Part shown: piece after piece, positions 552-27,730 of the stretch
How positions within the stretch are numbered: position 1 is the stretch's first letter
Layout of the letters: each line of letters opens with the position of its first letter
Origin: a virus
DNA length: 28,521 nt
Direction: 5' to 3' (one strand)
IMG/VR virus record: IMGVR_UViG_3300000116_000143
Coordinates: 1-28,521 of that record
Translations under genes and position numbers: made by a program
The notes under the pieces: generated by a model
What the model saw: only the letters and a program-made list of their open reading frames with translations
Databases searched by the model: none
Told to the model about the DNA's origin: nothing

Positions 552-561
552 GGAGATAGGG

Positions 562-1029
562 ATGATTTACGAGAAAGTATCTGGAAAGTATTACAAAGAT
601 AACCCCTTAACTAAAAAGCAGGCAAATGACGGTCAGATGTACGTTAACGGGAAGTATATCAGTATTTCGCACCCCCTACACAAACCCGGACGCTACAAGA
701 CGTTTACAGATGCAGCTTTTGACAGTCTAGCGAAGTACGAAATGAGCAAAGAAGGACAGGTGTACATCATTACTAACCCTAACTTCCCTGAGTGGATTAA
801 AGTAGGCATGGCGATAGACTCAGAAGACAGACTCAACGGTTACCAAACGTCTTCACCCTTTCGCGATTACTCTTTGTTCACAAGCTGGTCTGTGTCTGAT
901 CGACGATCTGCTGAGTCAGAGGCCCACTCTCTACTGGAGAAATCTTTTGACCGCAGAGGCGAGTGGTTCAAGTGCACACCAGAGCAGGCACAAGACGCTG
1001 TGGCTGAACTCATGGAGAACCATGAATGA
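562..1029 (+). CDS. GIY-YIG nuclease domain protein (T5orf172 type)
   Basis: This is a 155-aa protein. The start at 562 is chosen because AGGAG (551-555) lies 6 bases upstream and directly overlaps the polymerase stop; the open frame extends further left, but that part runs inside the polymerase gene. Residues about 65-150 look like the T5orf172/MUG113 branch of the GIY-YIG nuclease superfamily: GQVYIIT (65-71) stands for GIY, WIKVG (78-82) for YIG, then Arg90, a Glu in the SAESEAH segment, and a terminal GEWF. The N-terminal 60 residues match nothing I recognise. It sits between the polymerase and the exonuclease, where T7 carries the small gene 5.3, a site often occupied by free-standing homing endonucleases. 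A homing role is inference; it could equally be a repair or host-DNA degrading nuclease. The stop overlaps the next start (ATGA, 1026-1029). Confidence 0.82.
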   Translation: MIYEKVSGKYYKDNPLTKKQANDGQMYVNGKYISISHPLHKPGRYKTFTDAAFDSLAKYEMSKEGQVYIITNPNFPEWIKVGMAIDSEDRLNGYQTSSPFRDYSLFTSWSVSDRRSAESEAHSLLEKSFDRRGEWFKCTPEQAQDAVAELMENHE

Positions 1030-3040: not shown

Positions 3041-4912
3041 ATGGACGCATATCAACAATACATACACAAGTCACGCTACGCACGTTACCTACCAGAAGAA
3101 CAACGACGTGAGACTTGGGAAGAGACAGTTAATCGTTATGTTAACTACTGGGTAGACAAAGCAGACCTAAATGACTTTGAAGTCTCTGATATCTTCAAGG
3201 CTATACATGATCTAGACGTTATGCCCAGCATGAGAGCGTTGATGACCGCAGGGGAAGCCTTAGACCGTGACAACGTAGCAGGGTTTAACTGTAGCTACCT
3301 ACCCATTGACCACCCTAAGGCCTTTGATGAGATGATGTACGTACTCATGTGTGGCACAGGAGTGGGTTACTCAGTAGAACGCCAGTACGTATCTAAGTTG
3401 CCAGAGGTTGCAGAGGAGTTTCATGGAACAGACACAGTTATTAATGTTGACGATTCAAAGGTCGGATGGGCGAAATCGTTTAGGGAACTGGTATCACTGC
3501 TGTATTCAGGTCAAATTCCCCAGTGGGACGTTAGCAGAGTACGACCTGCGGGTTCCGCACTTAAAACTTTCGGAGGTCGTGCAAGTGGTCCAGAACCTCT
3601 CGTTGACCTCTTCAAGTTCACAGTCGAAATCTTTCAAGAAGCTGCTGGAAGAAAACTTACATCCATTGAATGCCACGATCTTTGCTGTAAGATAGCATCG
3701 TGTATTGTGGTCGGAGGAGTCAGACGTAGCGCCCTTATCTCACTCTCTAACTTAACTGACGATCGCTTACGTCGTGCTAAGACAGGACAGTGGTGGGTGG
3801 ATAGTCCACACAGGGGTCTAGCTAACAACTCTGCTTGCTACACAGAGAAGCCTGACTTTGAGGCTTATCTTAATGAGTGGACTAGTTTGTACGAGTCACG
3901 CTCTGGTGAACGTGGTATGTTCTCTCGTGTCGCTAGTCAGAAACAAGCGGCTAAAAACGGTAGGCGTGACCCTGACCACGAGTTTGGAACTAACCCATGT
4001 TCTGAGATCATCCTCAGGCCTAACCAGTTCTGCAACCTGTCAGAAGTCGTAGTAAGACCTCAGGACACCTTAGCCACCTTGAAGCACAAGGTACGCATTG
4101 CGGCTATCCTAGGTACGCTACAGGCTACGCTAACTGACTTTAGGTACTTACGTAAGATATGGAAGACTAACACTGAGGAAGAGGCGTTACTAGGGGTGTC
4201 ACTGACAGGCATCATGGACCATCCACTACTATCAGGCCGAGGTGACAATGCAAAGCTTAAGAAGTGGCTCACAGAGATGCGAGAGGAATCAATTGAGACT
4301 AACAAGCGGTGGGCTGAGAGACTTAACATTAGTCCCTCTACAGCAATTACTGCGATTAAGCCTAGCGGTACTGTTAGTCAGTTGGTCGATAGTGCTAGTG
4401 GGTGCCATCCTCGTTTTAGCCCACAGTATATTCGACGGGTTCGTGCAGACGCTCGTGACCCTCTCTGTGTGGTCTTAGAGGCCGCTGGTGTGCCTGTGGA
4501 GGACGATGTGATGAACCCTAGTACCAAGGTGTTCAGCTTCCCTATCGCCTCACCAGAGGGCGCTGTGACAGCCTCAGACATGGGTGCAATAGAGCAACTA
4601 GAGTTGTGGGAGATGTATCAGGACTACTGGTGTGAACACAAGCCGTCTATGACTTGCTACTATCGTGACCACGAGTTTCTAGAGGTAGGCCAGTGGTTAT
4701 ACAACAAGTTTGACAAGGTATCAGGGATCTCTTTCCTGCCTTACTCAGACCATACGTACCAACAGGCACCTTATGAGCCGGTAGACAAGGCTACCCTCAA
4801 GTCACTCAAGAAGGACTTCCCTACTGAAATCAACTGGGACATCAATGAGGAGTCTGATATGACTGAAGGTAGCCAGCAGTTAGCTTGCACAGGTAACAAC
4901 TGTGAAATCTAA
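3041..4912 (+). CDS. Ribonucleoside-triphosphate reductase, adenosylcobalamin-dependent (class II, monomeric)
   Basis: This 623-aa enzyme reduces ribonucleoside triphosphates to deoxy forms using adenosylcobalamin, feeding phage DNA synthesis. The full cysteine set of Lactobacillus RTPR is present: Cys84 (NCSY; Cys119 there), Cys320 in NPCSEI with Glu322 (thiyl-radical Cys408 and Glu410), Cys331 (Cys419, same 11-residue spacing), and the C-terminal shuttle pair Cys616 and Cys621 in CTGNNCEI (Cys731/736, same spacing). GTGVGYS and RPAGSALKTFGGR are further family phrases. It is about 115 residues shorter than the Lactobacillus enzyme, mostly before the radical cysteine, as in other phage forms, and I see no ATP-cone. 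It depends on host or environmental cobalamin. AGGAG lies 11 bases upstream. The stop codon overlaps that of the converging gene at 4909-4911. Confidence 0.96.
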   Translation: MDAYQQYIHKSRYARYLPEEQRRETWEETVNRYVNYWVDKADLNDFEVSDIFKAIHDLDVMPSMRALMTAGEALDRDNVAGFNCSYLPIDHPKAFDEMMYVLMCGTGVGYSVERQYVSKLPEVAEEFHGTDTVINVDDSKVGWAKSFRELVSLLYSGQIPQWDVSRVRPAGSALKTFGGRASGPEPLVDLFKFTVEIFQEAAGRKLTSIECHDLCCKIASCIVVGGVRRSALISLSNLTDDRLRRAKTGQWWVDSPHRGLANNSACYTEKPDFEAYLNEWTSLYESRSGERGMFSRVASQKQAAKNGRRDPDHEFGTNPCSEIILRPNQFCNLSEVVVRPQDTLATLKHKVRIAAILGTLQATLTDFRYLRKIWKTNTEEEALLGVSLTGIMDHPLLSGRGDNAKLKKWLTEMREESIETNKRWAERLNISPSTAITAIKPSGTVSQLVDSASGCHPRFSPQYIRRVRADARDPLCVVLEAAGVPVEDDVMNPSTKVFSFPIASPEGAVTASDMGAIEQLELWEMYQDYWCEHKPSMTCYYRDHEFLEVGQWLYNKFDKVSGISFLPYSDHTYQQAPYEPVDKATLKSLKKDFPTEINWDINEESDMTEGSQQLACTGNNCEI

Positions 4913-5091
4913 GACATAAAGAAGATAGAGTAACCTCTGTCGTTACCACCTACGTCCTCTGGCTTCTCTTTAGGGTCATGGGACGTGGGTATTCCCTCCT
5001 TCTGCATCTTCTTGATGCGTTCCTTAGACTTCTGACACATACTGTGGTAGTCCAAAGATGTGTAGCTTACTGTGTGTTTATCGTCATTCAT
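4909..5091 (-). CDS. Small hypothetical protein at the convergent junction
   Basis: This is a 60-aa charged protein (many Lys, Asp and Glu; two Gly-Gly/Asp motifs near the end), last gene of the - strand late operon. It is kept as real because its ATG (5091) overlaps the stop of the large upstream gene, GGAGG lies about 5 bases before it, and it fills the gap between the operons exactly. Its stop TAG (4909-4911) shares bases with the RNR stop TAA (4910-4912) on the other strand. I do not recognise it and see no membrane segment or metal site (a single Cys). Confidence 0.62.
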   Translation of the reverse strand: MNDDKHTVSYTSLDYHSMCQKSKERIKKMQKEGIPTSHDPKEKPEDVGGNDRGYSIFFMS

Positions 5092-7409
5092 TATTGTCCT
5101 CCCGTCATCATACCCGTCCTGCCAATACTTCTAGCAAGAATGTCTGCTGTTCGTCCTGTGGCGTCTGCTTGTAAAAACCTTTGAGTAGCCATTTGTGGGC
5201 CTGTTTGTCCTGCAACAATTCTCTGCGCCGCTGGTGTAGCCATTGCTTTTCCTAAAGCACCGCCCGTAGCTAAAGAAGCCGCTTGAAATCCTGTACCAAC
5301 TGTTGCCCCCAAAATACCAGTGGCGGCTAAAGTATGGAACCAGCTAGGATTCTGAGGGCTTCTCAGTTGTTTTAGCTCATCTAACTGAGATCCAAGCTGC
5401 TTTATTTCAGCTTCCTTTGCATTTTTCAGTGTTGTCTGTCTAGCAATATCTTCTGCAAACTGTGGATTATTTCTTAATTTAGCTTTTTTAGATGCAATGT
5501 CTGCGTCAATGTTTTTAAGTTGTGTTTGAAGTTTATTTGAGTGTTCTTGAATCGTTTTTTCAACTAGATTTGCTCTAGCTTTAGCTAAATTTGCTGCTCT
5601 TTTTGCTATAGATTTTTCTGCCGTTTTTAGGTTTGTTTCTAAAACGTGAGCCTGCTTTACTAAAGGCCCTGTACCATAGCGTTTGTCTAGGTTGTTGTTA
5701 GATGAAGCCGCGTTAATCCAATCGCTTTCGTCAAACACCCCACGCTTAGTAGGATCTTTTCTAGTATTTTCAACAGCATCCCTTAAAATTACAGTGCTTT
5801 TCCAGTTTCCTGCTTCTTTTTCAAACGCTTTCTTCTGGCTTGTAGTAAGTTGCTTTTTAATTATATCGTCAATTTTGCCTTGAGCCATATAATAGGCTTT
5901 TCGCATTTGGGGATCTCCAGCATTAGAAGCTATAGTTCCTAATCTACTGCGTATAGTAGAAAGAATATCACCATCTATCCTGCTGCTGGCGTCTTTAAAA
6001 GAGTTTACACTGTTTATAGCACTCATTACGTTTGTCTTAAACGCCCCCATATCAGGAAGCAAAACTTTAAATACTGGGTCGTTAGAAATACCTTTAGCTA
6101 AGTCTGCTTCAAACTCATTTTTTAAAACCCTAATTTTTTTACCCTTAATCATAGAATAACCTTTGTCACTCCATAAATTGTCTAATGCTCGCACACGCTG
6201 ACCAACATCTTCAATGGATAAGACTTTTTGTATGTCATCAATAGAAGCTTTAGCAGGCATTGCACTAGAAAAGGCTTGATTTCTGAAGTCAAAGCGTCTA
6301 GCATTTAACAACTTACTTACTGTAGATGTTGCTTTTCCTGCTATTTCAGTTGCTTTTCCACTCTTTAACAGTTTTAGCTTTTCTTGTAGCGGTAAAATTG
6401 TGTCCGCAGATTCTTTGTTTTTAGCATCTTTTAATCTTTTAGCATCTGCTTTAAAAGCGGCTGACGCATCACTCATAGCATCTTTTTGTTCTTGGATTTT
6501 AACTTTAAGGTTTTCATCCATTTTTTTAGACATGACTTTTTGAGCATCTAAAAACTTTTCAGCTTTTCCTACTATCTTTTCTTCTTGGCCTCTTACAATA
6601 CCCTTTCCTCCAAAAGACGGGGCAACAATGTCTCTGTAAAACGTGTGCACAGCACCCTCAATACCGTCTGGTTTACTGGCGGCAAGCGTAATAGGCACAA
6701 AGTCACCTGCGTCGTCTATTAAGTCGCCTTCAACGTTTCTACGTGTAAAGGCGCTAACACCTCTACCAGCGACATTCATTCCACCCCGCAAAACACCGTA
6801 ACCTACTAGACCAGCACCAGCGCCTTGAGCAGCACCCTCAAGCCTCTCGCCTTCTTTAGACTCTCCAGCACCGTATATTGCGCCTTCAGCGGCGACTCTG
6901 CCTCCGGTTGACGCAGCCCGTGTTGCCTGTGCTGCTCTACCAACCATCCCCGCTCTTGCCGCTATGTTTACGCCGGGAATAAAGTTTACAGGAGATGCCA
7001 CAGACCCAGCAATATCTGCTGTCATGTACGCTCCCGGCTGTCTTTGTTTAAATTCTGATTGCCTTTGATCGTACTCTGTCCTTAATCTTTTGTAAATATC
7101 TTCAGAACTTTCGTCTGAATACAAGGACTCGCTTTGAGACTGTACCCATAATTGCATATCGTCGCCCCAGCCTAAAGCCATGCTGGAGAAAAAACGTTCG
7201 GAAGCAGCGAGAGAGTCCTCAGATGACCAAGCAGTTTTTTCTACTTTGAGTTGTTCTATTGTTTTAGAGTCAGTTTGTCTAGCGTTTTCTAATTCTTGCA
7301 AAATCCTTTGTTTTTCTTCTTCAGTTATTGAAGAAGCAGGATCTCCGCTAGAAACATCACCTACGTTTTGATTTTGTCTTCGCAATGAATTTAAAATTAA
7401 ATCAGACAT
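5091..7409 (-). CDS. Large virion protein, probable internal/ejection protein
   Basis: This 772-aa protein sits at the distal end of the structural operon, where T7-like phages place proteins ejected into the host with the DNA. Residues about 30-130 are charged and helical. A Gly/Ala-rich stretch follows (about 130-215, with PVNFIPGVNIAARAG and GAGAGLVGYGVLRGG) that could insert in membranes. Then comes a long helical, Lys/Ala-rich region with coiled-coil character (about 270-700) and a hydrophobic Gly/Ala patch near the C-terminus (ATGILGATVGTGFQAA). I see no lysozyme or transglycosylase motif of the T7 gp16 kind. GAGG lies 5 bases upstream of ATG. The gene looks AT-richer than the capsid gene. 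Function is inferred from position and composition. Confidence 0.8.
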   Translation of the reverse strand: MSDLILNSLRRQNQNVGDVSSGDPASSITEEEKQRILQELENARQTDSKTIEQLKVEKTAWSSEDSLAASERFFSSMALGWGDDMQLWVQSQSESLYSDESSEDIYKRLRTEYDQRQSEFKQRQPGAYMTADIAGSVASPVNFIPGVNIAARAGMVGRAAQATRAASTGGRVAAEGAIYGAGESKEGERLEGAAQGAGAGLVGYGVLRGGMNVAGRGVSAFTRRNVEGDLIDDAGDFVPITLAASKPDGIEGAVHTFYRDIVAPSFGGKGIVRGQEEKIVGKAEKFLDAQKVMSKKMDENLKVKIQEQKDAMSDASAAFKADAKRLKDAKNKESADTILPLQEKLKLLKSGKATEIAGKATSTVSKLLNARRFDFRNQAFSSAMPAKASIDDIQKVLSIEDVGQRVRALDNLWSDKGYSMIKGKKIRVLKNEFEADLAKGISNDPVFKVLLPDMGAFKTNVMSAINSVNSFKDASSRIDGDILSTIRSRLGTIASNAGDPQMRKAYYMAQGKIDDIIKKQLTTSQKKAFEKEAGNWKSTVILRDAVENTRKDPTKRGVFDESDWINAASSNNNLDKRYGTGPLVKQAHVLETNLKTAEKSIAKRAANLAKARANLVEKTIQEHSNKLQTQLKNIDADIASKKAKLRNNPQFAEDIARQTTLKNAKEAEIKQLGSQLDELKQLRSPQNPSWFHTLAATGILGATVGTGFQAASLATGGALGKAMATPAAQRIVAGQTGPQMATQRFLQADATGRTADILARSIGRTGMMTGGQ

Positions 7410-7416
7410 TTTAACC

Positions 7417-8742
7417 TCAGTTAAAAGTTATTTTGTTTTTTTCAACAAAGTCGTCATATCTTTGTTGTTCGGATTGTGCGTTTTCTAACAAATCTAAATA
7501 ACCTATTTTGTCTTGTGATCTGACAAACTCAATTAGTTCCTTTGCTGCTACTGTGTTTCCATTGCTATCTAATTGTGCTGCCTGTTGAAGCTGCGCGTCT
7601 AATACAGCGACTTCTTCTGAATTATCTTGGCGCAAAGCATCAACGCTTTTATTATAACCGTCTAAACTAACTTTTCTTTCGTAACCAAATGCCAAGGCGT
7701 CTCCAGTTTGCTCAATCCACCTGAGTTTACCGTCCATGTATTCTTTTTCAGCATCAGCTATTTTTTTCATGCCTCTAATATAGGCAATTCTGTCTTCAGC
7801 GTTTAGATTTTTAGGATCAACACTAGAGTCTAAAGCTAACTTAACATCTCTATCAGAAGCTGGTCCTCTTGGTAGAAGGGCTATAGCACTTTTCATACGA
7901 ACTTCGTTTAAACGAGAACGGTGAACAGTTATTGCGTCACCTAAACCAGCAACATCAGCAATAACAAAATCTCTAGCCATTCCTAGAAAACCACCAACCT
8001 GACCCTCTTCTCCTGCAATTTCTATTGTGTCATTTAAGAGATTAGAATATTTTATAGCCTCTGCTCCAGACTCTCTTTGCGCTGTTACAGTTTCTGTGTA
8101 AGCCTCTATTTCTGGGTTTTTCCAATCATTTCTTCCACGAGGAGCGTCAACGTCTTCTCCTGCCACTTTTCCAATTTCTCTTCTGCTTAAAAATACGCCT
8201 TTTGCGTCAAAAAAATCAACAACGCTTGTGTTTACGCCATTAATTACAACGTCTTTTTCTACTTTGTATCCTTTAGTCTCGCTTCCTTCTTTTTCTTTTT
8301 CAACAGAACCTTCAAGAATTTCTAAGGCTCTTTCCGCACTAACCCCGTATCCTTTTGCTATTTCTAAATAAGCTTGCCGCTTCTTGTTACTTCGTGAAAT
8401 ATCTTCGTCTGGAGAAGATTGCATCATACGTGACATATTAAAAAGAGCCAGTTCTCCTTTTTCGCTTGACGCCTCTTTAGCCCTAGTAGCAGCATCTTGA
8501 AACAACTCAGCCGCTTCTTTGTTACCACCTGCGGCGTACTTCTGAGACATAGCCGTTAGTTGTGCAGGGTCATTAGCGTACTGCTGTAGTAACTTCTGTA
8601 CTTCAGCCTGAGATTTCACACGGCTCTCCTCAGCCATCATCATTCCCGGCAACGCCCCTACTCCTTCAGCAGCATCGCCAAGCCTTTTAGAGTAACTAGG
8701 GTTAAGGAGTCCTTGTATAAATGTATCTGAAAACTTAGCCAT
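7417..8742 (-). CDS. Virion protein, probable internal/ejection protein
   Basis: This 441-aa, largely helical, charged protein begins 7 bases before the next large ejection-protein candidate and follows another by two bases, so the three form a block. The N-terminus (MAKFSDTFIQGLLNPSY) and the Gln/Ala-rich helical region after it (about 40-110) are of the type seen in internal virion proteins of marine podoviruses. The C-terminal third again has long Glu/Gln/Leu-rich helices. No enzyme motif, signal peptide or membrane segment is apparent. AGGAG lies 7 bases upstream of ATG 8742. A role inside the capsid, or as part of the trans-envelope channel during DNA entry, is inferred from neighbours only. 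Confidence 0.77.
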   Translation of the reverse strand: MAKFSDTFIQGLLNPSYSKRLGDAAEGVGALPGMMMAEESRVKSQAEVQKLLQQYANDPAQLTAMSQKYAAGGNKEAAELFQDAATRAKEASSEKGELALFNMSRMMQSSPDEDISRSNKKRQAYLEIAKGYGVSAERALEILEGSVEKEKEGSETKGYKVEKDVVINGVNTSVVDFFDAKGVFLSRREIGKVAGEDVDAPRGRNDWKNPEIEAYTETVTAQRESGAEAIKYSNLLNDTIEIAGEEGQVGGFLGMARDFVIADVAGLGDAITVHRSRLNEVRMKSAIALLPRGPASDRDVKLALDSSVDPKNLNAEDRIAYIRGMKKIADAEKEYMDGKLRWIEQTGDALAFGYERKVSLDGYNKSVDALRQDNSEEVAVLDAQLQQAAQLDSNGNTVAAKELIEFVRSQDKIGYLDLLENAQSEQQRYDDFVEKNKITFN

Positions 8743-8744
8743 TA

Positions 8745-9932
8745 TTACGCTCCTGTTACGCCTTTCACTAAACCACCAATGAGTCCTGTACCTACGTCAC
8801 CTAACAGATTAGCTCTAGCTTGTTCTGCGGCCAAACGTGCTTGGACACCACTCATCATGCCTTCACTGTAGTTACCTACTCCGTACTGTTGTGCTTGTTG
8901 TTGTAACTGCGGGAACAAAGAAGTAGCATTAATTTGATTAAGCATTTGTGCTTGTGGTAAATACGCACCTGTCAACAGTGCCATATTAAGAGCCTGTTGT
9001 TGTTGCTCAAGGTCTGTTGCTGCGCCGTAGGCTTGTTGACCAAAGACTAACGAATCATAAGCACGACGCTGTTGTGCATCTCTCATAGCGCCTTCAGCCG
9101 TTGCTAAGTCACTACCTAAGCCAGCAAACTGAGAACCTAATGCTGCTTGTTGTTGTTGCTCTGCTTGTGCTTGTTGCATAGCCATCAAGGATGCTTGGTT
9201 CTGAGCTTCTGCTTGTGCCTTAGACAAAGCAAACTGCTCTTGCGTACCACCATACATATTGGTTTGAACACCTAAACGACCCTGATTAAACAAACGCTCC
9301 TCAAGAGCTAACTGCTGACGTTGCTCTTCAGGTGCCTGCATAGCCCTCATACGGTTGTAAACATCAGTCTCTCTGGCACCTACTCCTTGACCCGCTTGAC
9401 CCATAAACATACCGCCTAAGTCTGAGGCACCTTGAGCTAACAACTGTTGATTAAGAATACCGTAGGGGTCTTGTCTAAGCTGTGTTTGACCACGTGTTAA
9501 AGCTAATCCTGCCCCTGTTCTAGTGTCAGCGGCTCCCATAGGACCCCTCATAGAACTAACACCAGCCCTACGTAGCATTTCGTTCTGAAAGGCTTGCTCT
9601 TCTGTCGATAGCGTTGTTTGAGCACCTAAACTAGTAACTACTCCAGTAGCAGGATCTATTGTAGGAGTTAAACCAAATGAAGAACCTGTGCTAGAAGTAA
9701 GAGTATAAGGTCTAAATTGAGATAGCCCTAGACCTTCTTGAGCAATCTGTGCTGCTCCGGGTATTGGCGTTCCATCTGATAATTCTCCTCCAAGATAAGA
9801 CTGCTCTCCAATAGTTGCTAGTCTATCGTAAGCCTCTTTTGTAAGAAGACCACCAGCCGCACCTGCACCTAAGCCTAAAAAAGCACCTACTGCGCTGTCA
9901 CCAGAAAAAAGATTTTTAATAGTATTAATCAT
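8745..9932 (-). CDS. Gln/Ala-rich virion protein, probable internal/ejection protein
   Basis: This 395-aa protein has a hydrophobic Gly/Ala segment near the N-terminus (AVGAFLGLGAGAAGGLL, about residues 15-31) that could act as a membrane-active helix. The rest is rich in Gln, Ala, Met and Gly, with long polar helices (QAQAEQQQQAALGSQ near 255-270). Such composition is common in proteins ejected by podoviruses, and it lies directly after the tail nozzle gene, as the first of three probable ejection genes. Its ATG overlaps the stop of the tail nozzle gene (ATGA, 9929-9932). No catalytic motif is seen. An alternative is a tail-lumen or tail-needle component. Confidence 0.75.
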   Translation of the reverse strand: MINTIKNLFSGDSAVGAFLGLGAGAAGGLLTKEAYDRLATIGEQSYLGGELSDGTPIPGAAQIAQEGLGLSQFRPYTLTSSTGSSFGLTPTIDPATGVVTSLGAQTTLSTEEQAFQNEMLRRAGVSSMRGPMGAADTRTGAGLALTRGQTQLRQDPYGILNQQLLAQGASDLGGMFMGQAGQGVGARETDVYNRMRAMQAPEEQRQQLALEERLFNQGRLGVQTNMYGGTQEQFALSKAQAEAQNQASLMAMQQAQAEQQQQAALGSQFAGLGSDLATAEGAMRDAQQRRAYDSLVFGQQAYGAATDLEQQQQALNMALLTGAYLPQAQMLNQINATSLFPQLQQQAQQYGVGNYSEGMMSGVQARLAAEQARANLLGDVGTGLIGGLVKGVTGA

Positions 9933-11452
9933 ATTGTTTTACCTACTAGTGCTAATACGTTCATTTCCTGTATAGACAAAGCAAAGCCGTTAATGTCTGT
10001 CTCAAGGCCCACGTTAATTACAGATCCATACCCTGTGGTGTTTAGTGAGTTCCTGCTTATAGTAATTCCTTCAGCAGAATAGTCAGATTCACTATATTCA
10101 GACTGACCGTAAAAAGCAGGAGTATCACTGCTTGTCCTAAAAGTACTAGAACTGGTATCTGTTGAAAAGTCATAAGACCATTTGAGGAAAATGTCTGAGT
10201 TGTTTCCTCCAATCAAAGTAGGTCTAATCTTCTTTAACATCTTAATTTTAGCTGAATCACCAAACGTAAGGCCCGGACTAAAGTACCTAAAGCGGTAAGG
10301 TTGTCCGTTGTCTTTATAGTTGTCGTACTTACCTAAGCCGTCTACACACCCTATGTATATGTCACCGTTCCTGTCTCTTTGAAACGACTTAAAGTCTACA
10401 CTGGGCCAACGAGTAACTCTGTACGCTCCGTTTTCTAGCGTTGCTCTTATGTCAAAGCAGTACACTAGGTTAAGATCAGCAAAACACAAAAGATAAAAGT
10501 AGTTCTCAGGGCTGTACACAGTGCTAACAGGTGTAGCAGTAGCCAGTGTATTAGCAATTAACTCTTGTTTTATGTTTCTGCTTAAGTCAGTAATAGGTAA
10601 AGATTTTTCTTGTATTGTTCTACCTAGTCCTCTTAGACCTGTAGGAGTTAAAAACAAAATATCTGTTCCTATGTCTTGTACACTGTTTCTGTCTACACAA
10701 CCTACACCAGCAATGGTGTCATTAATAGCCATAGATGCAGGACTGTCTGCTCCACTGTAAACAATTATATTATTCTCACCAAAAACAATAAGAAAGTTAT
10801 TGTGTGCGGCAAGAGCTACAACTTTATCAAACCCATTAGGCCATGCCTTAGCTACATCTATAGATCCGCTAGAGCCACTACTAAAGTTGTGTCCTACTAA
10901 CAAGTCAGACCAATAAATAATACTATCATTAGTCGCATTACCTACAACAAACAACCTACCATAAGCAGCAAGAACTTCATTAGAATACTGACTAGCTGTT
11001 ACATGAGCGCCAGATACACTAGACATTTTAGTTACTGCCCCTAGTGAGTGGCTATAGACTAAAGGTTCATAACCGCGTTGAAAGAAGTAAGCATGATCGT
11101 TAAAGTTTACAATCTTCCAATCGTTAGCTGCAATTGTATACGATCCCGGTGTAGCATCTACTAATGTCGTAGTGCCTGTCATAATCTTATTGTTACCCGT
11201 GCTAAAGATTACTTCGTTACCTGCACTGTCGTAAAACTCATGTATCTTATGTAGGTAGTCTGTACCTAGTACCGTTTTGTCTGTAGTTAAAACAGTGTTA
11301 CCTTTTCGTGACGCAAGACGACCACGCCTGTCAATGATAGCGTTATCAGCAACTTCTGCAAAAGCAGTGTCCTGTGCTATAGGAGAGTCTTCAGTATTGA
11401 TCCCCATAAAAGCAGGAGCAACTAAGTTAATACTCTGTAGTGGCTGGGCCAT
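9929..11452 (-). CDS. Tail nozzle protein (T7 gp12-type beta-propeller, likely)
   Basis: This 507-aa, beta-rich protein probably forms the tail nozzle below the adaptor ring. It carries repeated blade-like phrases with aromatic/Gly pairs typical of nozzle propellers: DNAIIDRRGRLASRKG near residues 36-51, YGRLFVVGN, NNFLIVFGENNIIVYSG and DILFLTPTGLRGLGR. The N-terminus opens with a hydrophobic strand (INLVAPAFMGINTEDSP), also common in this family. Its length is shorter than T7 gp12 (794 aa) but normal for proteins of this kind in marine podoviruses. It comes right after the adaptor gene, as gp11-gp12 do in T7. AGGAG lies 6 bases upstream of ATG 11452. Direct similarity to gp12 is not obvious by eye, so the call rests on pattern and context. 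Confidence 0.8.
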   Translation of the reverse strand: MAQPLQSINLVAPAFMGINTEDSPIAQDTAFAEVADNAIIDRRGRLASRKGNTVLTTDKTVLGTDYLHKIHEFYDSAGNEVIFSTGNNKIMTGTTTLVDATPGSYTIAANDWKIVNFNDHAYFFQRGYEPLVYSHSLGAVTKMSSVSGAHVTASQYSNEVLAAYGRLFVVGNATNDSIIYWSDLLVGHNFSSGSSGSIDVAKAWPNGFDKVVALAAHNNFLIVFGENNIIVYSGADSPASMAINDTIAGVGCVDRNSVQDIGTDILFLTPTGLRGLGRTIQEKSLPITDLSRNIKQELIANTLATATPVSTVYSPENYFYLLCFADLNLVYCFDIRATLENGAYRVTRWPSVDFKSFQRDRNGDIYIGCVDGLGKYDNYKDNGQPYRFRYFSPGLTFGDSAKIKMLKKIRPTLIGGNNSDIFLKWSYDFSTDTSSSTFRTSSDTPAFYGQSEYSESDYSAEGITISRNSLNTTGYGSVINVGLETDINGFALSIQEMNVLALVGKTI

Positions 11453-11460
11453 ACTTACTC

Positions 11461-12108
11461 CTACGGTGTGTACCAGATGGTTTCGTCAGGGTGCTTCTGT
11501 GCATCCATAGCGATTGCATCTGATAGATATTTGTCAGCCATAGCAAAGTACTCAGGGGTAGATGTACCGCCTGTCTCGCCACGTTCACGAGCTAACAGAG
11601 CTACTGCCATGTGAATAACAGGCTGACTAGGAATAGCAAGAGTATCTGCATCAACAGACAAAGGAACATTTCTAATTACCATCTTAGTTTTAATAGAGTA
11701 AACATCATCAGGTTTAGGATATACATCAATCTGTGAATCACCGTTAGCATCTACACTGTTGTAAGTGTAAAAAGAAGGTGTGCCAGATGCGGGTGTTCCT
11801 ATCAGATACTTTTCGTCAATCCAAGACTGAGGACGATACTCCATTATTATATTAGATGTATCGTTAACCATAGTCAGTACTTTACCGTAGTCCTGTGAAC
11901 CTGTAAGAGAATACGTGTAGTCATCTGCCGCAGTAGTAATCGTAACAGTAGTTCTAAGCTGTGACCAATCCCAAGCGTTTTCTATTATTGTCTTAGAGTC
12001 ATTAATATAGTCACCAACCATAGTGCTATAGGTATTAGCAAACACAGTAGTTACTTGGTCTTCCCGTAAACGCCTAAGCACATTGTTTACTAAATTTAAG
12101 TATGTCAT
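11461..12108 (-). CDS. Tail adaptor / tail tubular protein A-like
   Basis: This 215-aa protein probably forms the ring joining portal and tail nozzle. The N-terminus TYLNLVNNVLRRLRE with a following DYINDSKTIIENAWDWSQLR is the typical helical start of podovirus adaptor proteins (T7 gp11 type and related families). The middle is beta-rich (YTYSLTGSQDYGKV, QIDVYPKPDD) and the C-terminus returns to helices (LAIPSQPVIHMAVALLARERG) as in that fold. It lies just ahead of the nozzle gene, in T7 order. AAGGA lies 8 bases upstream of ATG 12108, and its start overlaps the upstream stop by 4 bases (ATGA). Confidence 0.85.
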   Translation of the reverse strand: MTYLNLVNNVLRRLREDQVTTVFANTYSTMVGDYINDSKTIIENAWDWSQLRTTVTITTAADDYTYSLTGSQDYGKVLTMVNDTSNIIMEYRPQSWIDEKYLIGTPASGTPSFYTYNSVDANGDSQIDVYPKPDDVYSIKTKMVIRNVPLSVDADTLAIPSQPVIHMAVALLARERGETGGTSTPEYFAMADKYLSDAIAMDAQKHPDETIWYTP

Positions 12109-13133
12109 ATCAAATCCTTAAACAAACTATTAGTTAAAAACCCTCTTAACATTTTAACGTAGTCTACGCTTTGTTGCTTTTCAATAGGGTCTTTTGCTTG
12201 AAAAGGAGTGTACTCAAAACTGCTGTTTACGGTTCCGGGGCCAGAAGCACCAAAATTACTACCGGGGCCAAAAGAAGTTGAAGAAGTTGAAGAAGTTGTT
12301 GGTACACTTTGCATACAAGAAATATGATTACGGTTAATGTTAGAATACATTTTACCGCCTACTCTATAGTAAACATGCAAGTCATTGCCTTGACATTCTT
12401 CAGCAATTGTCCCATCGTTAGTGTTATTAGGTGTTGCACCGTTAGTAGACCCTGTTAATGACGTGTCTGGTGTGTTTGATACTCCCTCACAATTAACATT
12501 ATTTTCTAATTTTTCTATTGTTCCGTCGCTCCAGTACACATTTAGAGTAGTATCAGCGCAAAAAGTTTTAAGAACTTTGGGTGGGACAAAATCAGGATCA
12601 GAGCCGTCTTTAGCCCCTTCGTCTACAGTAAAAACATTACCACTTAATCCAGTTTCAGTAGGTTGACTATCTGCCATTGGCACTAACATTGATTGCGCTG
12701 GTGCCTCTGTTTCTAACATTGATTGCGCTGGTGCTGGTGGTGGTGGGCCTATTGGATTAACAGTTCCAACTTGGTTAGGGTTAAGATCAGGGAAATTAGT
12801 TTCTGATAGGTATGATGCAGTGTCTTGAGCATCAGGAAACTGATCCATAAGAGAATCTACATCAACTTCTGGAATATATGGATTGTTGTTTTGAGAATCA
12901 GCAACCTGTTGACCGCTTCCAAACATACTGCCGCCCAAAGAACTATTAAGCCATGTATTATATTCAGTACCAGATGTGTAATGTGCCATTGGCCCTGTGT
13001 AAGTATAACCGAAACCGGGATAGTACGTATACTCATCTGGATGCGTTTCTGGACTAGTACTTGCTATGTAAGCATCAGCCGCTAAAGCCTGTTGACTAGG
13101 AACATAGGCAGGATCTCTATTGTCATACGCCAT
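12105..13133 (-). CDS. Putative virion protein with a duplicated Cys-bounded motif
   Basis: This is a 342-aa protein of no family I recognise. It is rich in Asn, Ser, Thr and Pro (GPPPPAPAQSM, TTSSTSSTSFGPGSN), suggesting extended or surface-exposed regions. Two short units, at about residues 191-214 and 246-272, look homologous: both begin with Cys, have L.VY(W/Y), then Gly, then Asn residues, and end with Cys. A 10-residue direct repeat containing PAQSML is encoded by two near-identical 22-base blocks starting at 12683 and 12713. It lies between the large Cys-rich protein and the tail adaptor and overlaps both starts, so it is co-translated with tail genes. A tail or accessory receptor-contact role is possible. 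AAGGA lies ahead of the start. Confidence 0.7.
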   Translation of the reverse strand: MAYDNRDPAYVPSQQALAADAYIASTSPETHPDEYTYYPGFGYTYTGPMAHYTSGTEYNTWLNSSLGGSMFGSGQQVADSQNNNPYIPEVDVDSLMDQFPDAQDTASYLSETNFPDLNPNQVGTVNPIGPPPPAPAQSMLETEAPAQSMLVPMADSQPTETGLSGNVFTVDEGAKDGSDPDFVPPKVLKTFCADTTLNVYWSDGTIEKLENNVNCEGVSNTPDTSLTGSTNGATPNNTNDGTIAEECQGNDLHVYYRVGGKMYSNINRNHISCMQSVPTTSSTSSTSFGPGSNFGASGPGTVNSSFEYTPFQAKDPIEKQQSVDYVKMLRGFLTNSLFKDLI

Positions 13134-15643
13134 TATAATATATCCTTATTTCTTTTAGACATTAATCTACCTATTTGTTCGTTTAACTGTGTTGTGTAAT
13201 CAACATAAGGAGTGCTTGAAACAACTAACTCAGGAGTCCTGTTCCAACTAAAATCAAAAGCAGCAGGGCTAAACATACCTGTACCTCCACCACCACCGCC
13301 GCCTCCACCACCACCACCACCGCCTCCACTACCGGGAGTTGTAGTAGTTACTAGTGTTTCTTTTTCTACACATTCATCTAAAGTAGAGTCAAATTCATAT
13401 CCTGCTTTACACTCACCACACGAACCATCTTCGTTTTCTACTCTGTTTTGTTGCGCACAAGGCGACCCTTCAGAAGGAGGACCTTCAGTAAAAACTACAG
13501 GGTTGTCTTCACATTGTCCTTCAGCGTTTTTAGTTTGACCTTCTGGACATTCTTCACAACCACTTTCTTTAGTAGCACCGTTAGCACACTCACCATTTCC
13601 AACAGGTGTTACAGTTGTTACCTCACCACAAAATTTATCCCAGTTAATCTGGTCAAAGCCGTACTCAGTAGGCCTTGGTTGGCTACATAGGGAATCAAGA
13701 GGGTCAACACAGTTTCCTTGTGCATCTCTAACTTTGTTACCTTCACAAGGCTCAGTACCACCGCCCGGAGGCCCTACTGTTACTGTCTCACACTGCTGTG
13801 TTTCTTCATTATATTGCTCATCTTCACCACACTCACCGTTGCCTCCGTTGCCTCCGTTGCCTCCAGTTCCTGTAGTTGGTACGTAGCAACCTCCCTCGTC
13901 ATCAAAGATGCCCTGCTGACCATCGCTAGTGTTACAAGGTTGGCCGGGAGTGAAAAAGACTTCATCAACACAAGCACCAGCAACCTCGTTGTACACCTGT
14001 CCTTCAAGACAAACCTCTACTGTTCCTGCTGATACGCACTTTCCAAATTCATCAGATTGAAAACCCTCTATACAAGGGCCACAAGACTCTTCTTCTGTAG
14101 CATCTGATGTTTGTACTCTGTTTACTGTAGAACAATCAAAGTCAGCATTAGACCCACCGTTGTTATCTCCGGGTCCTGTAGTTGCTACTGTAACAGTAGT
14201 ACCACCTTCTGTAGTGTGGCTACCTGATCCACTTGCGGCGTTATTAATCCAATCAGATAGTGTTTTAATCCAGCCGTCATCAGGATCTACAGAATCTAAG
14301 GTTGAGCTAAGTATTTCCCAATAAGGACTCGTGCCCTTTACCTCATCAAGCCCCTTAGCTACAAAATCTTTCCAGCTTAAAGTTTCAGTTAGACCGTCGT
14401 ATCCAGTTAAAGTTACAAACTTACCATCCTTGTTTTCAAAAATGTCTACGTAATCATAAGATTCTGTTGCGCTTTCCCACCAATCGCCACCAGTTATATT
14501 CTGCTCTACAAACTCGTTAAAGCCGCCTCTTATGTCTGCAATTACTCCACCAGAGTATTGTCCAGTAAGTGGGTCTGGGGTGCCATTGAAAAACTCATAG
14601 GTACTAGACCCCTCCTCAATTAGACCACCAAAGGTAAAGTCCTGATTAGAGGCTGATAATGAAGAAAGTAAATCTTTGCCTATTTCAAGACCACCACCTA
14701 ATGCTCCTGAAGTAATAACAGTTTCTAGGTCTATAGTACCATTAATAATACCTTGTTCTATAGCAGAAGCAGAGGCAGAAGCTATAGCAGACGTAGAAGC
14801 CGCAGATAAATCTGAGAATATACCTAACTGTGAAAACTGAGTACCTAGCCCAGCGCCTAAAGCACTTCCTAAAACACCCTCTACCGTTAATTCTTCTCCA
14901 AGTACTCCCTGTATGCCTGCGGAAACTAAAGACGATGTGGCGGCGCTCGCTGCTGCTCCACTCATCCCTAGTTGTGTAGTGAAGAAACCCTTTAGAGATG
15001 TTCCAATGGCTGCATTAGCTACTCCCCAAGTAGCTGCTGCTAGTACAGCGGTTTTAATAAGTTCTTTAGCGAAATCAACTTGAGGGGTTTTATAAGTCTT
15101 AGTAAAACTTGTGCCATTCCAACGGAACAAGTCACCATCGTCGTTCTGAAAGCTTTCTACTATTCCGTAACTCTCAATTAAGGCTTTATATTCTTCAGGG
15201 TTGTCGTATTGATTAAGACCTTGAGCATTTAAGGTTGAGGACTCCTTTACAAAGCTCATCCAGTTGTCGTAAGTTAAATTAGGGTTAGCTTCTTTAAAGT
15301 AACCCATTCCCTCGTCGGCATCCCAGAAGCTCTTAATTTTTTCTTCTGTCTGCCAAGATCCCTGAGTTGTTACAGAACCATCGTCCTCAACATCAAAGTA
15401 TATTTTACGTACATCACCTAGCTCAGATGGCTGATTAAAATAGTACACTGGTGTGCTAAAATCTGGGTCTGTCTGCCAACCACTCGGTGTATAATAAGCG
15501 TTGGAATAATACATATTCCCGTCGTCACCCTGAACTACAGGGCTAGGCTTATTATCTAGAATAGCACTCAAGTCAATGCCGTTTACATTGCCGAGATCAA
15601 AATCACCTAAGTTTAAGTTAGGGTCTAATTTTGGTGCAGCCAT
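13133..15643 (-). CDS. Large virion protein: hydrophobic core, Cys-rich repeats, poly-Gly
   Basis: This 836-aa protein is not matched to a known family. The first 190 residues are acidic and aromatic-rich. A 140-residue Ala/Gly/Ser-rich hydrophobic region follows (about 195-335, e.g. LIKTAVLAAATWGVANAAI, VLGSALGAGLG). The C-terminal part, from about residue 500, holds all of the protein's roughly 22 cysteines, in repeats of the form C..C..G(F/Y/Q)...-G.C (SCGPCIEGF, GCEECPEGQ, SCGECKAGY) that recall EGF- or ephrin-receptor-like Cys-rich modules. A run of 15 glycines follows, then a short tail. Disulfides would need an oxidising, extracellular setting, so exposure outside the particle or in the periplasm is inferred. 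It overlaps its neighbours by one base (TAATG). AAAGG lies upstream. Confidence 0.78.
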   Translation of the reverse strand: MAAPKLDPNLNLGDFDLGNVNGIDLSAILDNKPSPVVQGDDGNMYYSNAYYTPSGWQTDPDFSTPVYYFNQPSELGDVRKIYFDVEDDGSVTTQGSWQTEEKIKSFWDADEGMGYFKEANPNLTYDNWMSFVKESSTLNAQGLNQYDNPEEYKALIESYGIVESFQNDDGDLFRWNGTSFTKTYKTPQVDFAKELIKTAVLAAATWGVANAAIGTSLKGFFTTQLGMSGAAASAATSSLVSAGIQGVLGEELTVEGVLGSALGAGLGTQFSQLGIFSDLSAASTSAIASASASAIEQGIINGTIDLETVITSGALGGGLEIGKDLLSSLSASNQDFTFGGLIEEGSSTYEFFNGTPDPLTGQYSGGVIADIRGGFNEFVEQNITGGDWWESATESYDYVDIFENKDGKFVTLTGYDGLTETLSWKDFVAKGLDEVKGTSPYWEILSSTLDSVDPDDGWIKTLSDWINNAASGSGSHTTEGGTTVTVATTGPGDNNGGSNADFDCSTVNRVQTSDATEEESCGPCIEGFQSDEFGKCVSAGTVEVCLEGQVYNEVAGACVDEVFFTPGQPCNTSDGQQGIFDDEGGCYVPTTGTGGNGGNGGNGECGEDEQYNEETQQCETVTVGPPGGGTEPCEGNKVRDAQGNCVDPLDSLCSQPRPTEYGFDQINWDKFCGEVTTVTPVGNGECANGATKESGCEECPEGQTKNAEGQCEDNPVVFTEGPPSEGSPCAQQNRVENEDGSCGECKAGYEFDSTLDECVEKETLVTTTTPGSGGGGGGGGGGGGGGGTGMFSPAAFDFSWNRTPELVVSSTPYVDYTTQLNEQIGRLMSKRNKDIL
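13283..13327 (-). repeat. Poly-glycine codon run
   Basis: Fifteen consecutive GGN codons near the 3' end of the Cys-rich virion gene. The third bases vary (GGT, GGA, GGC), so the tract is not a pure trinucleotide repeat and should be less prone to slippage. It probably encodes a flexible linker or a polyglycine helix. Confidence 0.9.
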
Positions 15644-16020
15644 TATTTCTTACCTTTTAACGCAAGCAACTTGTCAGCGCCACGTATACCAAAGGAGGCA
15701 GATACTGCCATGAATAACAAATACTGATACCAATCAGGAAGTCTGTTAAGCTCCTCAAAGGCAAGACCAATGCGATCTAGTATATCTACATCATTCATTC
15801 CAATACCCCATACAACGGCAACCACAGGCGCTGAGAGCAACAATGTAAACCACTCGTCCTTCCAAGAGGTAGCACTGGCAGTTGCCATGAGTTGTTCCCA
15901 AGACGCTGTGTTCTGGATAACTTCCATCTTTGCTTTGTGTATTGCTGACTTTTCTTCAGACCTGTTCTTTAGAACCTGACCCAGCAAAGTAACAATAGGA
16001 GATATGAGTGTTTGCCACAT
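15643..16020 (-). CDS. Putative holin (GTA holin-like, 2-3 membrane segments)
   Basis: This 125-aa protein resembles the 3TM holin family described from gene transfer agents. Two clear membrane helices are visible at about residues 58-75 (FTLLLSAPVVAVVWGIGM) and 99-112 (QYLLFMAVSASFGI). There is also a hydrophobic, possibly amphipathic N-terminal helix (LISPIVTLLGQVL). Family-like features are the W.D.W before the first helix, the LNRLPDWYQ turn between helices, and a basic C-terminus after GIRGADK. Holins form lesions in the inner membrane that release the endolysin. The endolysin candidate lies 11 kb upstream on the same strand, so the lysis genes are split. GAGG lies 7 bases upstream of ATG 16020. 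Confidence 0.75.
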   Translation of the reverse strand: MWQTLISPIVTLLGQVLKNRSEEKSAIHKAKMEVIQNTASWEQLMATASATSWKDEWFTLLLSAPVVAVVWGIGMNDVDILDRIGLAFEELNRLPDWYQYLLFMAVSASFGIRGADKLLALKGKK

Positions 16021-16724: not shown

Positions 16725-17611
16725 TAGAACGTAATACTCCCTGATCCAGTAAAGGTATAAATATTATAAGAACCACTTGTAGTTTCAGTAGGGGAACCTG
16801 ACGTTGCTGAAGCAGTTGCAAGGGTTTTAATAATTACAACTCCTGATCCTCCTGCACCACCTGAAGATCCACCATGAGAGCCTGCTGCTCCACCTCCTCC
16901 TCCAGTGTTTACTGAACCTGTACCACCAGCACCTGCACCGCTGTTACCACCGCCTCCTGCTCCACCTGAAGCTCCAGAATTAGGATAACTACTACCACCG
17001 CCACCGCCTGCACGAGTAACAGCACTTCCTGTTATTGAGCTTGAAGAGCCTGCTCCACCAACACCGGCTGATGATGCGTCACCAAGACCACCTACAGCAC
17101 CTGCACCTCCTCCACCGCCACATCCGTATACACCAACAGCACCACTACTATTTCCACCGGCGCTTCCTTGGCCTAAAGTGCCAGCACCTCCAGTGTAACT
17201 TCCGTAAACTCCGCTACTAGCAACAGAGGCACCACCACCTGACCCGCCTGCATTACCATTACCTGAAGATCCGTAGTGAGCGCCACCACCTCCACCAGTA
17301 CTAGAAACTGTAGTAATACCAGTACCTGCTAAACTAGAAATATTACCGTCAGTTCCTCTAGAAAGATGATTAGCCGCTGTTGCGCCTGCACCCACAGTAA
17401 CAGTATATGTAACGCCTGCTGTTAAACTTAAGGAAGAGCCAGTAAGGTATCCACCAGCACCACCACCGGCACCGTGATAGGAACCTCCTCCTCCTCCACC
17501 GCCTCCAGCAATAACTAAATAATCAATATCAGGAACAGGATCGCCAGCCTCAAGGTGACTAAATCCAAAACCTTGTGCAGAAGCGCCACCAATTGTAGAT
17601 AAGATAGGCAT
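16724..17611 (-). CDS. Glycine-rich tail adhesin
   Basis: This 295-aa protein probably forms a receptor-binding tip. After a short head (ILSTIGGASAQGFGF) comes a DYLVIAGGGGGGG strand and then about 200 residues dominated by Gly, Ala and Ser in runs such as GGGGGAHYGSSGNG and GGAGGGGNSGAGAGG. The protein closes with GSGVVIIKT and YTFTGSGSITF, the usual end of phage Gly-rich domain proteins. Such Gly-rich regions can pack as polyglycine-II helices, as in the gp38 adhesin of phage S16, where loops between glycine runs set host specificity; applying that here is inference. It lies directly after the tail fibre gene and overlaps it by one base (TAATG). Confidence 0.85.
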   Translation of the reverse strand: MPILSTIGGASAQGFGFSHLEAGDPVPDIDYLVIAGGGGGGGGSYHGAGGGAGGYLTGSSLSLTAGVTYTVTVGAGATAANHLSRGTDGNISSLAGTGITTVSSTGGGGGAHYGSSGNGNAGGSGGGASVASSGVYGSYTGGAGTLGQGSAGGNSSGAVGVYGCGGGGGAGAVGGLGDASSAGVGGAGSSSSITGSAVTRAGGGGGSSYPNSGASGGAGGGGNSGAGAGGTGSVNTGGGGGAAGSHGGSSGGAGGSGVVIIKTLATASATSGSPTETTSGSYNIYTFTGSGSITF

Positions 17612-19185
17612 TATGCAAACTGCGTCTGAGCAGCTAAAACAGTAAACGTAGCATCTGCTGTTTTAATAATTGTAAATGAGTAAGTGTCAATACTATTCGT
17701 ATTACCAGCAGAAGGTGCAGCGCCTCCCTGCCACTCAGGTGTTACTGAAGAACCGTCTATTTGAAAAGTATTTAAGTAGTAAGCTGTTCCTGCCTGCTTC
17801 ATAAGAACAGCAGTAGTTATACTTTCTCCAGCAGCCATTGTACTGTTTAAAGTAGTACTGCCATCCCCTCTAAAATTAATTGTTCTGTTTGCTGTTTGAT
17901 TTACGTTGTAAAAATGAACGGCTTGGCTTAAAAAGTCAAAGTTGATAGTCCCTGATGTAGAGCTATCTACGTTAACTTTTTCTATAATTTCTGCAAGAGA
18001 AGTCGTGCCTACTAAAGTAACCTTGGATGTTGCACTAGCTGTAACTAAAGTAGAAGCCCCACTAGTGCCTAATACATTTGGTAAATCAACAGTGTAAGTA
18101 GCTGCTGCGCTATGCGCTGGGCCTCTTACTGTTACGCCGTGAGAGTTCGACTCACAGTTAAATCTAATAGTTCCGGGGTTAGTATTACCATATAGTTCAG
18201 TAAATCCAGTACCGTTAGGGAATAACTGTATGTTGCCGTTTGTATCAGTTGACTTTACTGCATTAGCATCTATCTGAATATTGTCTACGTTTAAAACACT
18301 AAGTGTAGCTAAAGATGCTACTCCTGTATCAGCAATAGTTATGTCCCCTGATACTACATTATCAATCCATTTTGAAGTTGCTGTGTCATAAAATAACAAA
18401 CCACCGTCAGCAGGAGAAGTAATGTTTACATCAGTTAACCCAGCAAGAGTAGCACCGCCTCCTCCCGTCTGTGCATCTACGTATGCTTTAATAGATTGTT
18501 GACTAGCAATACCTGTAGCTGAGTTACTAGCCATATTGTCTTCGTCTAAAAAAGCTTTACCAGTTAAAATGTTTAACTCAGCAGTTGAAGATGTTATTCC
18601 ATCAAGTGTGTTAAGCTCAGAAGCTGTAGAAGTTACTCCATCAAGTATATTTAATTCTGCTGTTGTAGAAGTAACGCCATCTAATATGTTTAGCTCTGCT
18701 GTTGTAGAGGTTACACCATCTAATATGTTTAGCTCAGAAGCAGTAGAAGTAACCCCATCTAAAATATTTAACTCAGCGGTTGTAGAGGTAACTCCGTCTA
18801 ATATGTTTAATTCAGCAGTAGTAGAGGTTACACCGTCTAAAATATTTAGCTCTGCTGTTGTAGAAGTTACACCATCAAGTATATTTAATTCAACCGCCGT
18901 TGAAGTAATTGCTGTGCCGTTAATAGATAAAGTAGTAAAGTTGCCTGTAGCTGCTGTACTGCTTCCAACAGTAGTGCCATCTATAGCACCACCATTAATA
19001 TCTACTGTAGGAATAACAACAGTACCAGTAAAAGTGGGGCCATCTGTGTTTGATTTAGTAGCAATAGCTACTGCAATAGCATTAAACTCTGTATCAAACT
19101 CTGAGCCACGGACAACCTTATTGGCATCACCCGTAGGTAAAGAATCTTTAGCAGTAAAATTTGTGGATTTTACATAGTTAGACAT
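17611..19185 (-). CDS. Tail fibre protein with nine 13-residue repeats
   Basis: This is a 524-aa fibre or fibre-base protein. The N-terminus (MSNYVKSTNFTAKDSLPTG) followed by VVRGSEFDTEFNAIA is a common virion-attachment start in marine phage fibres. Residues about 95-211 are nine tandem 13-mers of the form S(T/A)(A/S)ELNILDGVT, a repeat commonly seen in aquatic phage fibres and probably building a rod. The C-terminal half is beta-rich and ends with phrases (AYYLNTFQIDGSSVTPEWQGG) widespread in cyanophage fibre proteins. It is the first gene after the capsid terminator; I see only a weak promoter-like sequence in the 55 bases before it, so read-through is the likely source of its transcript. 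AGGAAAACC lies ahead of the ATG. Confidence 0.87.
   Translation of the reverse strand: MSNYVKSTNFTAKDSLPTGDANKVVRGSEFDTEFNAIAVAIATKSNTDGPTFTGTVVIPTVDINGGAIDGTTVGSSTAATGNFTTLSINGTAITSTAVELNILDGVTSTTAELNILDGVTSTTAELNILDGVTSTTAELNILDGVTSTASELNILDGVTSTTAELNILDGVTSTTAELNILDGVTSTASELNTLDGITSSTAELNILTGKAFLDEDNMASNSATGIASQQSIKAYVDAQTGGGGATLAGLTDVNITSPADGGLLFYDTATSKWIDNVVSGDITIADTGVASLATLSVLNVDNIQIDANAVKSTDTNGNIQLFPNGTGFTELYGNTNPGTIRFNCESNSHGVTVRGPAHSAAATYTVDLPNVLGTSGASTLVTASATSKVTLVGTTSLAEIIEKVNVDSSTSGTINFDFLSQAVHFYNVNQTANRTINFRGDGSTTLNSTMAAGESITTAVLMKQAGTAYYLNTFQIDGSSVTPEWQGGAAPSAGNTNSIDTYSFTIIKTADATFTVLAAQTQFA
18553..18903 (-). repeat. Nine 39-bp tandem coding repeats in tail fibre
   Basis: Nine in-frame units of 39 bases encode the ELNILDGVT repeat of the tail fibre. 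Protein units are almost identical, while the codons differ from unit to unit (for example AAT or AAC for Asn, and GCT, GCA, GCG or GCC for Ala). The outermost units are the most diverged (VELN at one end, TGKA at the other). Confidence 0.92.
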
Positions 19186-27189: not shown

Positions 27190-27501
27190 TTAGGGACGCT
27201 GCTTCTTAGCGGGTTTTTTCTTAGGCTTAGACTCACTTAGGGTCTTTGCTGCCCTAGCTACATCGTTGTTATAAGCACGTTCACAGTGATTAGAACCTAT
27301 AAACACAAAGTCAATTGCTGTATTAAGCACAGACCACCCTTTATACTTACTCTTTAACCTGTGGCTACGCCCTGATACAGACTCGTTAGCGTTGTCACCT
27401 AGTAGTATGGCTACGTTTACTAACTGACTAGTGGCGTCTCCTACTCTCACTACGTATCCTAGTACTTCGTCTAGTGCTTCTTCTGCTTTATTCTGTGGCA
27501 T
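27190..27501 (-). CDS. Conserved-type phage protein, unknown function
   Basis: This 103-aa protein is helical in its first half (KAEEALDEVLGYVVRVG, SQLVNVAILLG), then shows a NESVSGRSHRLKSKYKGWSV segment and HCERAYNNDVARAA before a Lys/Pro-rich tail (SKPKKKPAKKQRP). Proteins with the same SGRSHRL and N.DVARA phrases are frequent in marine podoviruses close to terminase and lysis genes, without known function. The GRSHR and basic tail could contact DNA. GGAG lies 9 bases before ATG, inside the glutaredoxin gene, which it overlaps by 14 bases. Confidence 0.75.
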   Translation of the reverse strand: MPQNKAEEALDEVLGYVVRVGDATSQLVNVAILLGDNANESVSGRSHRLKSKYKGWSVLNTAIDFVFIGSNHCERAYNNDVARAAKTLSESKPKKKPAKKQRP

Positions 27502-27730
27502 CTACTGTTTCTCCGGTAAAAGAGTTTAAAACTTCTGTTAAGTCTTTATGTCCACCTAAGTGGTAGAATATTTGAGGTATAGACCGTTTACCTGTTAGTG
27601 TTTCTACCATGTCCCACCCCGCTTGACCCGGAGGAATATGTATGTACTTGTATGGTAGTTCGTACTCTTTTACTTTTTTCTTTGCGTTTCTACAAGCAGG
27701 ACACCAATCAGCCCCTATAATAGTAATCAC
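27488..27730 (-). CDS. Glutaredoxin-like thiol protein (GTG start)
   Basis: This 80-aa protein has a thioredoxin fold signature: WCPAC (Cys10 and Cys13) after a first beta strand (ITIIGAD), then the cis-proline in SIPQIF (Pro52) and a GGHKDL turn typical of glutaredoxins. It probably donates electrons to disulfides; the class II RNR on the other arm, whose C-terminal cysteine pair needs reduction, is a plausible client, though RTPR usually uses thioredoxin. It lies in the late operon between small terminase and an unknown gene, an odd place for a nucleotide-metabolism gene. GTG 27730 is the start, with GAGGAA 8 bases upstream; it overlaps the previous stop as TAGTG. Confidence 0.87.
   Translation of the reverse strand: MITIIGADWCPACRNAKKKVKEYELPYKYIHIPPGQAGWDMVETLTGKRSIPQIFYHLGGHKDLTEVLNSFTGETVDATE

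Follow-up and report, generated by a model that had tools for sequence, protein, structure and literature searches.

Exchangeable cysteine-rich modules in a hypervariable gene slot of related, probably podovirus-like phages

Described systems and database context

Several described systems resemble parts of the locus analysed here. Marine phage metaviromic islands are enriched in host-recognition genes and, like the present locus, show gene replacement between near-identical phages beside the tail genes (PMC3909814). The island genes encode tail fibre, C1q, lectin and carbohydrate-binding proteins, unlike the Cys-hairpin protein, and the text of that paper does not mention cysteine, EGF, collagen or DUF4214. 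The Agrobacterium phage Milano likewise has Cys-rich structural proteins and a particle stabilised by disulfides (PMC10491603). In this myophage the disulfides link proteins of the neck, collar, capsid and tail to one another, whereas the predicted hairpins of the present protein are local and in tandem within one chain, and the other particle proteins are Cys-poor. Collagen-like phage tail fibres (phrog_1806, phrog_5073) occupy the same gene slot in one relative (L055) but consist of triple-helix-type repeats instead of disulfide hairpins. The proteins of this slot keep the C-terminal tail and exchange their N-terminal parts, which is the reverse of the usual fibre.

Outside phages, the EGF, laminin-EGF, TNFR and TIL modules have a two-hairpin layout like that predicted for the 4-Cys phage module, and a weak profile match to the EGF end of fibulin-4 has been obtained. 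On the other hand, these modules have 6–8 Cys while the phage modules have 2 or 4, with adjacent pairing favoured. The insect growth-blocking/plasmatocyte-spreading peptide is a CxxGYx(n)C single-disulfide hairpin, as predicted for the phage units, and gives a weak sequence match (E 0.04), but it is a free 23-residue insect peptide and the likeness is likely to be convergence.

The 836-aa protein itself has no real match in Pfam, PHROGs or PDB sequence searches, in agreement with the first-pass annotation, which knew of no described family. The PDB sequence matches obtained are glycine linkers of antibody fragments. No known tail-fibre family of Pfam or PHROGs matches it either, the only fibre match being that of the collagen-like L055. 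With the protein and two of its relatives as queries, tblastn against 50,697 phage records finds no relative; pattern scans of GTDB genomes with the tail protein and a module string, which reach only close relatives, find none either. The open-access literature, which leaves most subscription journals outside its coverage, yields no description of the family. The family, unseen in cultured phages, is common in metagenomes, where 410 candidate stretches have been confirmed as carrying the neighbouring tail gene.

The gene and its neighbours

The window, a linear virus record of 28,521 bases, may be a fragment. The Cys-rich gene lies at 13133–15643 on the minus strand; the first-pass annotation had given this open reading frame and its 836 aa correctly but without the strand. 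The opposite (plus) strand is stop-rich over the same interval. The gene overlaps its neighbour by 1 nt on both sides, has full-length homologues (77–84% identical) in three other contigs (L001–L003) as well as a homologue at greater distance in L004, and shows a dN/dS of 0.33–0.58 in the Cys region. Based on the overlaps, the full-length homologues and this ratio, the reading frame is a real gene, and sequence comparison indicates that it is under purifying selection.

The gene is part of a minus-strand run. Besides the Cys gene and the second variable gene, this run comprises genes of TerL-like, portal-like and capsid-like type, a fibre gene bearing LNILDGV repeats, a fibre-type gene rich in Gly, genes for small membrane proteins, an SU10-type adaptor, a protein of tail/head-closure type and three ejection-type genes free of Cys. 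The labels portal, holin and ejection are putative and follow gene order. The placement of the gene in a phage structural region, as first annotated, holds. The run shows neither a tail-tube nor a tape-measure gene, so the phage is probably podovirus-like.

Upstream, the conserved flank is a small membrane protein (15643–16020, minus strand; phrog_2524), presumably holin-like. Downstream, the second variable gene (12105–13133, minus strand) encodes 342 aa with 4 Cys, and its final ~22 codons stay conserved beside the adaptor gene, which could reflect the translation start of the adaptor rather than docking. The SU10-type head-tail adaptor (11461–12108, minus strand; Pfam SU10_adaptor 1.4e-13) forms the downstream conserved flank. 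It is followed by the conserved tail/head-closure type protein (9929–11452, minus strand), which served as the bait for gathering relatives. With 410 candidates confirmed, 80 contigs were collected.

Domain layout and probable cysteine pairing

The N-terminal region (residues 1–189; 15077–15643, minus strand, as are all parts of the gene given below) is Cys-free and, by blastp of slot proteins, partly common to the Cys-poor relatives L024, L027 and L028. An Ala/Gly-rich stretch follows at about residues 190–430 (14354–15076), Cys-free as first described, which blastp also finds in the Cys-free or collagen-like relatives L065, L055 and L068; the full-length model predicts a helical core at 190–330. 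All 22 Cys lie within residues 504–758 (13370–14134) and fall into 11 consecutive pairs. The first Cys comes at 60% of the length, so that the count of about 22, all in the last 40%, is confirmed; the probability that 22 of 22 would land by chance in the final 333 residues is ~1e-9. The Cys region carries a net charge of −43 (residues 500–762). The single run of 15 glycines, also correctly noted, forms a linker at residues 773–787 (13283–13327). The C-terminal tail (residues 788–836; 13136–13282) has the pattern GMF...P.L...DY..L... and is loosely conserved across otherwise unrelated slot proteins; a profile of this tail does not reach convincingly to other particle proteins of the window. No obvious signal peptide is seen in the protein.

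The Cys region contains eight units, five of which hold just two Cys. The first 4-Cys module (residues 501–540; 14024–14143) has C504, C521, C524 and C536 and is supported by alignment A3. It is followed by the 2-Cys units C545/C558 (13970–14011), C570/C586 (13886–13936) and C605/C618 (13790–13831), each a predicted hairpin, and by C633/C645 (13709–13747) and C653/C672 (13628–13687), which are defined by their Cys positions. The second 4-Cys module (residues 683–716; 13496–13597; C686, C696, C699 and C711) is supported by alignments A1 and A3, and the third (residues 726–762; 13358–13468; C729, C742, C745 and C758) by alignment and by a model. The C..C..G...G.C motif of the first description is present as CGPCIEGFQSDEFGKC, CEECPEGQTKNAEGQC and CGECKAGYEFDSTLDEC. 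The module alignment holds about 55 modules (the third 4-Cys module and 54 others) picked by their Cys pattern, so the invariance of the Cys is partly by construction. A zinc-binding repeat with four Cys/His ligands per site throughout has been considered and does not describe a protein in which most units have two Cys, in a family whose totals are often not multiples of four.

The number of Cys is even in all 22 protein clusters with at least 4 Cys from related phages (range 4 to 64 Cys); the naive chance of this is 2.4e-7, although the clusters share modules and the counts are not fully independent. Even counts were also obtained in later finds, with 58 Cys in L096 (GTG start), 44 in L098 and 26 in L100. 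An even number is not a general property, since Cys in the adjacent tail protein vary freely from 3 to 6. When Cys are numbered from the N terminus and paired 1-2, 3-4 and so on, gaps of more than 25 aa fall 39 times between pairs and 4 times within them, while gaps of 9–20 aa make up 245/318 (77%) of those within pairs and 117/300 (39%) of those between. In pairwise alignments, paired Cys are kept or lost jointly more often, also at equal distance (0.67 within vs 0.57 between at 10–14 aa); no p value is attached, because the alignment cells are not independent. L001–L003 lack C686 and C696 together, exactly one adjacent pair. The even counts, the phase of the gaps and the joint retention and loss favour local pairs of the type 1-2, 3-4, and argue strongly for adjacent disulfides in the Cys region. 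The proposed disulfide bonding of the repeats therefore appears probable.

Their description as EGF-like holds in part. The modules look like the hairpin parts of EGF/TNFR/TIL-type modules, a likeness only, but they are 2- and 4-Cys units with adjacent pairing favoured instead of 6-Cys EGF domains with the pairing 1-3, 2-4, 5-6. No EGF profile of Pfam matches the 836-aa protein, and one relative matches cEGF at 4e-4, under the curated cut-off. The third 4-Cys module, folded together with the aligned modules, has been modelled with a pLDDT of 91 as two beta hairpins. Among solved structures, RANK, netrin laminin-EGF, Pfs25 EGF and a TIL inhibitor come closest, but none reaches significance (best Foldseek E 0.64, Z no higher than 2.4). 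RANK, a TNFR-type structure, heads the Foldseek list (E 0.64, TM 0.60 by query), still a weak match. Sequence profile matches of the module, to growth-blocking peptide and fibulin-4 hairpins, are also weak (E 0.04–0.06). The full-length AlphaFold model is of low confidence (pLDDT 48) and places hairpins in the Cys region; its best PDB match, the helices of serum albumin (Z 4.8), is uninformative. Disorder, which the first-pass annotation would have counted against itself, is not seen for the 4-Cys module; the poor full-length model speaks less clearly.

The hypervariable slot and the possible role of the protein

Among the 80 contigs, the slot that separates the small membrane protein from the adaptor encodes either one protein or two, and their Cys numbers range from 0 to 64. 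The adaptor genes are 73–100% identical (full-length matches), while the slot protein is unrecognisable or alike only in parts. Compared with L020/L022, the DNA is 96–97% identical as far as the start codon of the Cys gene. Beyond it the sequences are unrelated except for one stretch of 68% identity and a match of 39 bases, until an identity of 90% resumes shortly before the adaptor gene. L045 and L098 are 99% identical over 2.1 kb upstream and then carry different Cys modules, a module swap. The content of the slot is thus replaced between conserved flanks, as in the hypervariable host-interaction loci of marine phages. The replacements are other Cys modules, collagen-like, VDTG, GTG or T/V/P repeats, or Cys-free sequence. 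The N-terminal parts vary, with DUF4214 in 9 of 31 slot proteins scanned, and nearly all slot proteins end in the loosely conserved C-terminal tail, mostly behind a Gly- or Pro-rich linker.

Some slot proteins are of interest in their own right. That of L055 (3324–7343) has a very long GTTGTT (collagen-like) run with matches to Pfam Collagen (2.1e-9) and a tail-fibre PHROG (2.3e-21). The one in L057 (447–3263) has tandem CSDEELxxGGxEIRIGDPDSWYC repeats with two Cys per repeat and matches zf-CW (2.3e-11), possibly a chance profile match. A different phage contig (L100: 286–2214) encodes tandem 2-Cys DPCLNPAYAAENPVECGTPPT repeats (DPCxNPAYAAENPxxCG units, 26 Cys) on a stretch without adaptor or tail homologues, so that 2-Cys units are used beyond this slot.

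The string of predicted hairpins is swapped, dropped or replaced while its neighbours hardly change, a pattern that suggests a rapidly evolving, exposed part of the particle. We lean, by a slight balance of probability, towards an exposed, modular, disulfide-stapled spacer or adhesin, an accessory of a podovirus-like particle. Its location on the particle is suggested by the gene position, and we infer attachment by the C terminus and contact with the host surface. The attachment point would most likely be the C-terminal tail, on its glycine linker, and the Cys region would form a flexible, stable spacer or binding surface of 11 single-disulfide beta hairpins joined by Gly/Thr/Pro linkers. The cytoplasm is reducing and no obvious signal peptide is seen, so the disulfides would form after lysis. 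Recombination would exchange the gene, its N-terminal domain or single hairpin modules while the neighbouring tail genes are kept, as expected of a part facing a changing host surface.

A variant of this proposal, with host binding by the hairpin modules themselves and a host range shifted by their shuffling, is consistent with the module-level swaps, the hypervariable locus and the host-recognition genes enriched in marine phage metaviromic islands (PMC3909814). Such a receptor-binding adhesin is nonetheless unlikely, since low-complexity repeats replace the Cys region in relatives, which better fits a passive spacer, and since no ligand for the modules is known and a canonical fibre gene is present. 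This fibre (17611–19185, minus strand) may bind the host by itself, a point that also counts against the exposed spacer or adhesin. It carries LNILDGVTST-type repeats, about nine in number. In L096, L097 and L099 the first 70 residues of the fibre are found again directly behind the gene of the tail protein, and its N-terminus therefore occupies another cluster position in these relatives.

The main rival to the exposed spacer or adhesin is a protein carried inside the particle and ejected into the envelope of the host, with a membrane-active Ala/Gly helical core and Cys hairpins that fold in the oxidising periplasm after ejection. The helical core predicted at 190–330 would suit it, and weak matches to tape-measure PHROGs (2.2e-7) occur among the slot proteins, but these belong to relatives such as L061 and L051 and not to the Cys-rich protein itself. 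Variability alone does not prove surface exposure, because the downstream ejection-type genes vary too, which also speaks for this rival. These genes (5091–9932, minus strand) follow the tail protein and differ strongly even between relatives whose tail genes are nearly identical. The tail genes are already followed by three ejection-type genes free of Cys, however, and the collagen-like and other repeat spacers of relatives are typical of fibres, which leaves ejection a shade less likely than the receptor-binding variant.

A secreted or lysis-time protein outside the particle, such as a decoy or superinfection factor, would agree with the position of the gene directly after a holin-like gene and with the finding of no relative with proteomics among 50,697 phage records. 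It is improbable given that adaptor and tail genes follow in the same gene run, no signal peptide is seen and relatives carry fibre-type spacers. A metal-binding (zinc or iron-sulfur) repeat protein is very improbable, since the CxxC in the 4-Cys modules and the zf-CW match of L057 are set against many units with only 2 Cys, one CxxC per module instead of two knuckles, even counts that are often not multiples of 4 (22, 30, 34, 46, 54, 58) and a co-retention that fits pairs.

Returning to the disulfide-stapled spacer or adhesin, the same slot holds other spacers in relatives (collagen-like, VDTG and GTG repeats). It is tentatively proposed, a little short of what we would call probable, that an uncultured aquatic phage group shuffles single-disulfide hairpin modules and so diversifies a particle protein that is exposed, the disulfides forming only after release. 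This would be the counterpart, in bacterial viruses, of the shuffling of cysteine modules in extracellular proteins of animals. Should the protein prove to be on the particle, this one gene slot, with its range of 0 to 64 Cys, would offer a library of disulfide hairpins that are exchanged in nature. It could then be used to study what covalently stapled modules do for phages outside cells and what drives their exchange.

Additional genes of the window have been identified. A glutaredoxin (27488–27730, minus strand; Pfam 1.7e-7, CPAC motif) is found among the late genes of this phage with its disulfide-rich protein, and it may be no more than a partner of the ribonucleotide reductase. A B12-dependent (class II) ribonucleotide reductase of 623 aa is encoded at 3041–4912 (plus strand), and a T5orf172/GIY-YIG-type nuclease domain (5.5e-13) at 400–1029 (plus strand).
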